Shown here: in pieces, positions 1,516 to 10,831 of the stretch
Layout of the letters: each line of letters begins with the position of its first letter
How positions within the stretch are numbered: the stretch's first letter is position 1
NCBI GenBank assembly: GCA_903889265.1
Contig: CAISWS010000480.1
Location: 1 to 44,764 of the forward strand
Length of the DNA stretch: 44,764 nt
DNA from: an uncultured Bacteroidota bacterium
GTDB lineage: Bacteria; Bacteroidota; Bacteroidia; Chitinophagales; LD1
Direction of reading: 5' to 3'
Position numbers and translations under genes: made by a program
The notes under the pieces: model-generated
Told to the model about the DNA's origin: nothing
The model's database searches: none
What the model saw: only the letters and a program-made list of their open reading frames with translations

Positions 1516-1621
1516 GGGTTTACACTTTTTTGTTAAAAACGGGCTGTGTAAACAGATAAATGATTGATATTGAGGTAGTTGATTTTAAAAAACGGCCAAA
1601 AAGTGTAAACAGTGTAAACCC
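1516..1621 (-). repeat. Four-site GTTTACAC array, copy 1
   Basis: Four 8-bp sites are visible: GTTTACAC at 1518-1525 on the plus strand, and its complement GTGTAAAC at 1546-1553, 1603-1610 and 1612-1619. Read on the minus strand from 1621, the sites begin at offsets 2, 11, 68 and 96. The last is inverted relative to the other three. The two outermost sites at each end are joined to T-tracts (TTTACACTTTTT). The same layout occurs at 10726-10831 in the opposite orientation. The sites are conserved and the spacers are mostly not, as expected for a protein-binding array. Confidence 0.75.
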
Positions 1622-9777: not shown

Positions 9778-10084
9778 GGCTCTGTTACATTACTTAAACA
9801 AATAGTGGGGGAACTAATGGATAATGTAATTGTATATACGCGTTTTGTCAATGATAAGACGGCCGGTTTAGCAATAGCCGGGCCTGTTTAAAATATCTGT
9901 ACTGTTTTATCCGATGGAATAAAAGCTTTGCCTTGTATTTAAGTAGCAGCCACATGTAGATAACATCAGTTGAAAGTGCCTGCTGTAGACATGTGAAAAC
10001 CGATTTTTTTTAAAGCAAAGCACATAGTACAATGTCTGCGCAAATACATTGCGCACTGCCAGCCTAAATTGCCGAAAAAACAAA
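9778..10084. other. 307-bp divergent intergenic region
   Basis: This spacer separates the hybrid kinase (minus) from the HTH gene (plus) and must hold both promoters. No convincing -33/-7 pair, long repeat or strong hairpin was recognised. An antisense open frame across 9907-10107 looks spurious. Confidence 0.45.
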
Positions 10085-10717
10085 ATGAAAAAGAAAACCC
10101 CTCGCACAAACCCTCAATTCAGGTCGCTCTTGATGCTGGAAAAAATTGAACCCGCCGACCTTCAAACCCTAAGCCCCGAACAACAGGTACTTTTTAGAAA
10201 ACTGTTGAGTGAAAAACTGGCGGCCACCGCAGACGAAGAACGCGATGCCTTTATCGAAAAAATAATCGCAGTCATTGAGCCTGATAAAATATGGTATAAT
10301 AACCACGAACGTATAACCAAAGCCATTCAGGACTATATCCGCCTGTATTCAGCTATGCCGGGCAAAGTTGCTTTGGCCCGGGCCACAGGCCTTAGCAGGC
10401 AAACCATTCATAAACACCTGCGCAACCTTGGCGCAGCACCCGAAGTAACTCATTACACCAATATGTTTGATTTAATGACACCTCACGTTGTTACCAAAGT
10501 GCTGGAAAAAGCTCTTGGCGGCGATATGGCCGCGGCCAAACTATACCTCAAAGCCGCCGGAAGAGAAACCCGTAATACTACAACCGATGTGGTTATAAAC
10601 CATCAAAACAACTACATACAAATAAACGGCACCGTACTAAGCCAGCAAGCGTTGCAACAATTAAAACCCGAACTCCTGCAGAAACTGGAAGAGATTATAA
10701 AGAAGGGGCTTTCATAA
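10085..10717 (+). CDS. Lone HTH protein resembling a phage terminase small subunit
   Basis: 210 residues from the ATG at 10085 (MKKKTPRTNPQFR); an in-frame TTG at 10049 would add 12 residues but is less likely. Residues ~94-116 form a helix-turn-helix (KVALARATGLSRQTIHKHL). Residues ~148-160 (AAAKLYLKAAGRE) and the C-terminal QNNYIQINGTVLS plus LQKLEEI resemble Bacteroidota phage terminase small subunits, which recognise DNA by an HTH and assemble as rings. No large terminase, portal or other phage gene is nearby, so it looks domesticated or stranded. A four-site GTTTACAC array begins 8 bp after its stop and is a natural candidate binding site. That link is inference. Confidence 0.6.
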   Translation: MKKKTPRTNPQFRSLLMLEKIEPADLQTLSPEQQVLFRKLLSEKLAATADEERDAFIEKIIAVIEPDKIWYNNHERITKAIQDYIRLYSAMPGKVALARATGLSRQTIHKHLRNLGAAPEVTHYTNMFDLMTPHVVTKVLEKALGGDMAAAKLYLKAAGRETRNTTTDVVINHQNNYIQINGTVLSQQALQQLKPELLQKLEEIIKKGLS

Positions 10718-10725
10718 GCCAGTTA

Positions 10726-10831
10726 GGGTTTACACCTGTTTACACTTTTTTGAGTGCCGCAAGCATCTAAATAATTAACAATCAATATATTAACCTGTTT
10801 ACACTGCTCAAAATGAACAAAAAGTGTAAAT
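10726..10831 (+). repeat. Four-site GTTTACAC array, copy 2
   Basis: Sites are at 10728-10735, 10738-10745 and 10797-10804 (GTTTACAC) and, inverted, at 10824-10831 (GTGTAAAT). Offsets from 10726 are 2, 12, 71 and 98, against 2, 11, 68 and 96 in the copy at 1516-1621. T-tracts follow the second site and precede the last in both copies. It starts 8 bp after the stop of the terminase-like gene and ends about 60 bp before the TetR operators. Confidence 0.75.

Follow-up and report, generated by a model that had tools for sequence, protein, structure and literature searches.

The helix-turn-helix (HTH) protein P0001 and the GTTTACAC-type arrays associated with its gene probably constitute a gene-and-dispersed-repeat system, in which the protein would bind arrays and form looped complexes with them at many places. 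This reading is held with somewhat better than even confidence and draws on comparison of the sequence of the window (the whole stretch of 44,764 nucleotides of DNA that was analysed) with those of related genomes. P0001-type proteins very probably bind the arrays as a multimer on bent DNA, because genes and arrays co-occur, the array site tracks a residue of the recognition helix, the far site of the array is constrained, arm distances change in steps of one turn and paralogues possess arrays of their own. This looks like a chromosome-wide protein-and-repeat system so far undescribed, and among the matches listed from the open-licence literature searched, in the portions of text available, neither the P0001-type family nor its arrays is named.

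The arrays and their conserved geometry

Two arrays are present in the window (Table 1). The preliminary description had placed three direct sites and a last, inverted one at offsets 2, 12, 71 and 98 from the start of array 1, and this is borne out by the site positions, with GTTTACAC beginning at 10728, 10738 and 10797 on the forward strand and an inverted GTGTAAA beginning at 10824. This fourth site is GTGTAAAT, in which only the last base departs from the full octamer. The second array that had been reported, at offsets 2, 11, 68 and 96, was recovered on the reverse strand when counting from 1621. In total GTTTACAC occurs eight times in the window compared with 1.42 expected, and a count of eight was reached in none of 100 shuffles. 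The middle of each array contains an IHF-like site, judged against WATCAANNNNTTR, which we take to be the IHF consensus. One array lies upstream of a gene pair encoding an SDR enzyme and a TetR regulator, and the other upstream of a gene whose match to a beta-propeller lipoprotein model falls below threshold. The two arrays point their GGG ends at each other, yet each is complete and the genome has at least 11 more scattered copies, and the reading of the two as the ends of one 9-kb element was therefore rejected.

Table 1. Positions in the window of the array-associated gene, the two arrays and related features.
Feature	Position	Strand	Remarks
P0001 gene, array-associated HTH protein, 210 aa	10085..10717	+	open frame; homologues adjoin arrays in other species
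Recognition helix S104-L112 (SRQTIHKHL)	10394..10420	+	model helix 105-115; residue 109 is His here
Palindrome TGCGCAAATACATTGCGCA	10037..10055	+	upstream of P0001 gene; by inspection
Array 1	10726..10831	+	direct sites 10728-10735, 10738-10745, 10797-10804; inverted site 10824-10831, one base off
IHF-like site AATCAATATATTA	10780..10792	+	mid-array 1; matches WATCAANNNNTTR perfectly
Array 2	1516..1621	-	GTTTACAC at 1612-1619, 1603-1610, 1546-1553, inverted 1518-1525; one of five own-genome copies with longer similarity, here reaching 1435
IHF-like site TATCAATCATTTA	1557..1569	-	middle of array 2

The motif is also above chance in the whole genome to which the window belongs (5.1 Mb in 527 contigs), where the pattern GGGTTTACACN{0,2}TGTTTACAC gave 13 exact matches and the reversed-pattern control none; a 14th array place, on contig C104, was added by BLAST with a full copy. 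Diverged copies in this genome align with the query copy over the same stretch of about 110 bp; in five copies the shared stretch is longer, at about 190-220 bp. A subfamily of five copies, on different contigs, is 86-95% like the query copy. The array unit of about 110 bp consists of two tandem sites, an IHF-like bend site and an inverted far site. In the 12 untruncated copies of this genome one end is invariably GGGTTTACA-(0-2)-TGTTTACACTTTTT and the opposite end AAAAAGTGTAA, and the third direct site is exact in six of the 12, one base off in two and more degraded or absent in four. The copies examined are intergenic and the genes that flank them differ from copy to copy, with the exception of look-alike downstream genes at two loci (L001 and L011). 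The relatives search covered 99 genomes, among which the exact array pattern was found only in this genome and once in another of the same genus (G010); in G010 no paralogue was seen that has this motif next to it.

A larger population of copies is available in Mucilaginibacter lappiensis (G114). Across 41 of these, in which the search pattern fixes the tandem pair, conservation is strong at the flanking GTG and at both the third and the far inverted site, much lower in the spacers and absent from the flanks. Sought from 75 bp onwards, the far site lies 84-86 bp from the first site in 21 copies and 95-96 bp from it in 20, with none between. Its distance is 96-98 bp in the 10 copies of the window's own genome in which it was located, and a direct site is found 73-75 bp away in six copies of other species. 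As read from the sequences, arm distances step by about one helical turn. A perfect match to the presumed IHF consensus is found mid-array in 32 of the 41 G114 copies (reached in 2.3% of base shuffles) and in 8 of 12 copies from the window's own genome (1.2%), and occupies a fixed place between the putative protein sites.

Orthologous positions were compared by probing 16 G114 loci, of which 15 were located in each of two relatives, with the array pattern no further than 900 bp from the flank at 8 of the 15 in G116 and 9 of the 15 in G117. In 17 orthologous pairs the right inverted site, which lies outside the search pattern, was identical at 132 of 136 bases (97%), compared with 141 of 170 (83%) for site 3, 210 of 272 (77%) for the IHF-like core, 468 of 726 (63-65%) for the spacers and 2535 of 2862 (89%) for the flank probes. 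The difference between a far site at 97% and spacers at about 64% upholds the earlier proposal that sites and spacing are under selection while spacers diverge. Arm distance differs by exactly 11 bp in 3 of the 16 measurable orthologue pairs.

In G114 none of 41 copies lies inside an ORF and one overlaps an ORF end. The arrays occupy 11 convergent, 8 divergent and 22 same-strand gaps and the other gaps of the same stretches number 9, 8 and 26, so that the orientation classes of the arrays match those of other intergenic gaps and a promoter or terminator role was rejected. Nor do we claim chromosome polarity or even spacing. In G205 14 arrays are on the forward and 17 on the reverse strand with a gap CV of 0.71 (P 0.03); the corresponding values are 0.78 in G211 (P 0.11, 33 of 72 copies used) and 0.89 in G191 (P 0.35, 33 of 101 used), and regular spacing is weak at most in these three genomes.

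The array-associated protein and its co-occurrence with arrays

P0001 has no Pfam family at cut-off and no nuclease domain was detected in it with Pfam. Together with 29 relatives it gives mostly weak matches to HTH models, and Y1_Tnp is absent from the 25 Pfam families shown for this set. An AlphaFold2 monomer model (mean pLDDT 79, pTM 0.55), which is silent on multimers, is helical with an HTH at about residues 94-115 and a small C-terminal beta part. In a Foldseek comparison of this model with the PDB the alignments were confined to the HTH region (residues 64-117). The best Z, about 8, was for sigma factors, with TetR-type proteins and SlmA lower down, as befits a common arrangement; no PDB sequence or Foldseek match fell below 0.001. 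Weak matches to small terminase proteins were obtained (PHROG E 0.03-0.055; BFVD fold match E 8.5e-4). When the family was compared with defence-system models only weak matches resulted, to Csa3 (best E 5e-4, in L035) and mads_1. The gene has a sensor kinase, an SDR enzyme and a TetR regulator as neighbours in the window.

A profile search of bacterial genomes identified 41 homologue loci, many of them in Mucilaginibacter, with several in Bacteroidota assemblies, three in Pontibacter and single Epilithonimonas and Chitinophaga-type records. A tblastn search of a phage collection found no relative and viral contigs contained one. By inspection, palindromes of the TGCGCAAATACATTGCGCA type precede about ten of fourteen paralogues from the genus, and this palindrome is likely to be a shared operator or promoter part. 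Three paralogues in G013 have a common upstream motif differing from the TGCGCAAATACATTGCGCA type and many Mucilaginibacter genes of the family have a TTACTAATATTTTTAGCA-type palindrome, in both cases by inspection.

In Mucilaginibacter an array of the GTTTACAC or GTTAACAC type is found upstream of the homologue gene: 27 of the 30 loci have sites at most about 330 bp before the approximate start of the gene, and three have no array. Distribution was followed across 120 genomes of the genus of G114 (locus L060), of which 30 have a full-length gene, two have fragments only and 88 have none. Dispersed copies were counted with the patterns GGTTWACAN{1,3}GTTWACA or GGTTAACAYAACTTAACA and a threshold of at least five copies of either. 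This number is reached in 23 of the 30 genomes with a full-length gene compared with 3 of the 88 without (Fisher p 2e-15, uncorrected for kinship), and reversed-pattern controls gave 0-1 matches per gene-bearing genome for the first pattern and 0 for the second. Co-occurrence of this kind, adjacency of gene and array in other species and the covariation of residue and site described below all support the link between array and adjacent gene that had been proposed from the window. Copy numbers are 115 in G114, 107 in G116, 101 in G191, 90 in G117, 89 in G102, 73 in G103 and 72 in G211, with fewer in the others; three gene-free genomes carry 7-11. Of the gene-bearing genomes below five copies, G222, G099 and G109 have no array beside the gene, G106, G118 and G199 have a gene-side array with a gap wider than either pattern permits and G180 has three copies. 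The dispersed variant is often identical to the gene-side one, as in G112 where 19 of 19 copies are of the C form found beside its own gene.

Genome G217 has 26 copies of the GGTTAACAYAACTTAACA type and only C-terminal gene fragments, and these copies are apparently leftovers after gene decay. At L292 (G196:C1:1517000-1520000) six tandem 9-bp units of TGTAAACCA begin at position 1417 at one array end, as if sites had been expanded by slippage. The homologues at L035, L038 and L054 have no arrays upstream and are placed after BT4734-like, PriCT or D5-type primase/helicase genes, which suggests a mobile-element branch of the family. Of 38 loci scanned with flanks of 1.5-4 kb, eight have gene and array next to the tmRNA gene (ssrA), downstream of it at L021, L040, L046, L048, L051, L197 and L200 and on its other side at L203. 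A second copy of the tmRNA 3' end is found 3.8 kb further on at L046 and 146 bp further on at L197, and these duplicates hint at an integrated element. In G116 and G205, ORFs overlapping Y1_Tnp (RAYT-type) matches (L284:2528-3070 and L285:2791-3342) lie 1-2 kb from the array gene.

Recognition-helix residues, sites and paralogous arrays

Across species, residue 109 of the recognition helix varies with the site's central base. Among 33 genes with GTTxACA arrays, Ala109 accompanies GTTAACA in 12 of 12 and other residues accompany GTTTACA or GTTGACA in 18 of 18, so that all 30 coded genes agree, the three genes with mixed sites being left out. L050 has both kinds of site twice and was assigned according to its tandem pair, and L193 has one A-type site in four. 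In the best tree, from which the helix columns were excluded, residue and site each change five times, giving five independent pairs; only one of the five lies on firmly supported branches, where it agrees, and a phylogeny-corrected sign test is not significant. The gene of G205, which was outside the initial residue set, has Ala109 and a GTTAACA array, matching the expectation from its dispersed copies.

The same tendency is seen in the dispersed copies. In genomes with Ala109 the share of GTTAACA pairs is 16/16 in G110, 13/13 in G113, 28/28 in G183, 27/28 in G223, 8/9 in G221, 24/31 in G205, 4/6 in G105, 2/3 in G180 and 3/3 in both G103 and G211. The exceptions are G119 (0/9) and G102 (0/4), though the latter has 89 copies of the other TTAACA-type pattern. 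Where another residue is present the share is 0/115 in G114, 0/101 in G191, 0/30 in both G101 and G196, 0/14 in G000, 1/107 in G116, 1/90 in G117, 1/9 in G100, 1/8 in G111 and 1/6 in G115; here the exceptions are G107 (Ile109, 8/13) and G104 (Asn109, 10/25), which has a second partial gene. The gene-side sites of G107 are GTTTACA and most of its dispersed pairs GTTAACA, as if specificity had switched recently. The earlier claim that a multimeric DNA-binding protein underlies the arrays appears likely in the light of the gene link and of this covariation.

Paralogues with different recognition helices have different arrays. Within the window's own genus they are followed, by inspection, by arrays of the same plan and other sequence. 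When eight paralogue arrays were queried in four genomes, six had further copies at E < 1e-5 (L025; L028 and L018, which are of one common type; L023; L022; and L016, with a single copy), while those of L017 and L026 had none at this threshold. These further copies of distinct arrays imply that several gene-array families can share one genome. L020 and L023, from different genomes, both have the helix SRKTVS(K/R)HL and, by inspection, arms of the GGGGGTAGCA type. A simple inverted-repeat test behind the eight paralogues gave values exceeding all 40 shuffles for L022 (14), L023 (17), L025 (10) and L026 (10), of which only L022 and L023 exceeded all of 17 control stretches (5-10). The L025 match is a different hairpin, and L016, L017, L018 and L028 (5-8) were unremarkable. 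Array calls beyond L022 and L023 rely on inspection and further copies, those of L017 and L026 on inspection. On contig C133 of G013 a GGTTTACAAAGGTTTACA pair lies about 130 bp behind the L022 gene, after its own GGTGGTGGTCA array, although the L022 helix belongs to another type.

Explanations and known systems

The mechanism that we favour is as follows. P0001 would act as a sequence-specific HTH protein recognising GTTTACAC-type arrays, and several of its subunits would occupy the phased sites at both ends of the array. With the AT-rich middle bent by IHF or HU, protein and DNA would form compact loops in many intergenic regions across the chromosome. The gene-side copy may let the protein control its own expression, and such an autoregulatory site, which had also been suggested previously, is plausible because of the upstream array in 27 of 30 loci. 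In our judgement the complex most likely serves chromosome architecture or regulation rather than packaging, slow mobility being a further candidate role.

An explanation that we regard as unlikely, though deserving serious attention, is that the arrays are non-autonomous MITE- or REPIN-like units copied in trans, the HTH protein providing targeting and a nuclease coming from elsewhere, for example from a RAYT-type Y1 transposase. A mobile-element end had been among the options of the preliminary description. This explanation would account for the high copy number and patchy distribution of the arrays, their presence or absence at orthologous loci and the 86-95% alike subfamily, and homologues are found beside primase-type and tmRNA genes, with the second tmRNA 3' end at L046. 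Y1_Tnp genes are present in 14 of 14 genomes tested, separate from the array gene, and lie within 2 kb of it in G116 and G205; at the other five of seven gene loci examined there is none nearby and Y1_Tnp numbers do not track array numbers (G117 has 90 arrays and one Y1_Tnp). A RAYT was accordingly rejected as the partner, though it may act as a mobiliser. No precise empty site or target duplication was found in 11 aligned loci, where absences span more than the array and represent losses or replacements of larger intergenic stretches; one G117 locus (L148) retains just a fused GGGTTTACATGTAAACC. The spacers of 41 copies in one genome have diverged far (median identity 0.64, best pair 0.83), the far site is kept at orthologous places while spacers drift and the protein lacks a detected nuclease domain, all of which speaks against this explanation. 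It is also rather improbable that P0001 is an ordinary transcription regulator whose regulon is exceptionally large and that each array is the operator of a neighbouring gene. An HTH protein with arrays upstream of its own gene would fit this, as would the genes downstream of the two arrays in the window; against it, the orientation classes in G114 are like those of other gaps, the only common neighbours in the window's own genome are the look-alike genes at L001 and L011, and about half of the array positions are not kept in close relatives.

The preliminary description had raised the idea of a domesticated packaging system, and a packaging or gene-transfer-agent function, in which a small-terminase-like protein marks pac-type sites on the chromosome, now seems very improbable. 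In phage lambda the repeated R sites of cosB are bound by gpNu1 with an IHF site between them, and the arrays resemble this in having an HTH protein, several repeated sites and an IHF-like site within; the parallel that had been drawn with cosB is apt in this respect, and a packaging role is unsupported. In its fold P0001 weakly resembles a phage packaging small subunit in BFVD, and there are also the weak PHROG matches. A phage terminase system has one pac or cos site per genome and a TerL partner, whereas here there are tens of chromosomal sites and no packaging genes were seen: the ten ORFs scanned in the window include no large terminase or phage gene and are cellular or without family. 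With cellular gene neighbours, no relative in the phage collection, one in viral contigs and no solved structure below 0.001, packaging was rejected as the main reading. It is hardly credible that the arrays are chance or neutral leftover repeats without function. Copies do persist in G217 with gene fragments alone and in the three gene-free genomes, but counts far above controls, site constraint and covariation of residue with site all speak against this.

The favoured protein-and-repeat system would be of interest in several respects. One helix residue set against one base pair, together with paralogues having wholly different sites, offers a natural specificity series, and the one-turn steps around an IHF-like bend offer a testable geometry. 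Cultured Mucilaginibacter species would allow direct tests of binding, structure and function.

Systems in which one protein acts at many chromosomal sites include MatP/matS, SlmA and ParB/parS, whose sites consist of one short palindrome each and follow a positional pattern. The present system is alike in having one protein and many sites, and the HTH region of P0001 aligns with SlmA among many others; it differs in that the arrays are multi-site and without strong positional pattern. In the BIME-1/RIB-type REP clusters of E. coli inverted repeat units surround an IHF site, as in the arrays; the unit is different and the partner is of the RAYT type.

The Correia/NEMIS elements of Neisseria are intergenic repeats of 105-155 bp, the 155-bp form of which binds IHF in vitro, and they are described as MITE-like, with no cognate DNA-binding protein gene mentioned in the available part of the source (PMC2229807). 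The arrays are similarly intergenic, of similar length and furnished with an IHF-like site, and here there is a candidate cognate protein gene.

The nearest likeness in distribution is to REPIN-RAYT systems, for which the accessible portions of the sources describe a stable gene accompanied by repeats, numbering tens to hundreds, which are intergenic, inverted and diverged in their spacers and are more numerous in genomes with the gene (PMC8049555). REPINs and RAYT genes co-evolve and RAYTs are HuH proteins that process single-stranded REP (PMC8266576), REP units being short (20-40 bp), palindromic and tagged with GTAG or CGTC (PMC3733652). The arrays share the dispersed, inverted, intergenic repeats that are commoner in gene-bearing genomes. 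The partner there is a HuH/Y1 transposase and here an HTH protein without a detected nuclease, and the arrays are longer, at about 110 bp, their sites being phased and their centre IHF-like. How repeat populations persist in compact bacterial genomes and what role the partner protein plays in the host is open even for REPIN-RAYT, according to the excerpted text (PMC8049555). Tentatively, and with less than even confidence, we suggest a nuclease-free counterpart of REPIN-RAYT, in which HTH proteins would keep bent arrays as structural nodes, a switch in the helix would be followed by turnover of the entire set of arrays and one genome could house several of these pairs. With a partner lacking a detected catalytic domain and dozens of constrained arrays, the system appears to part repeats from catalysis.
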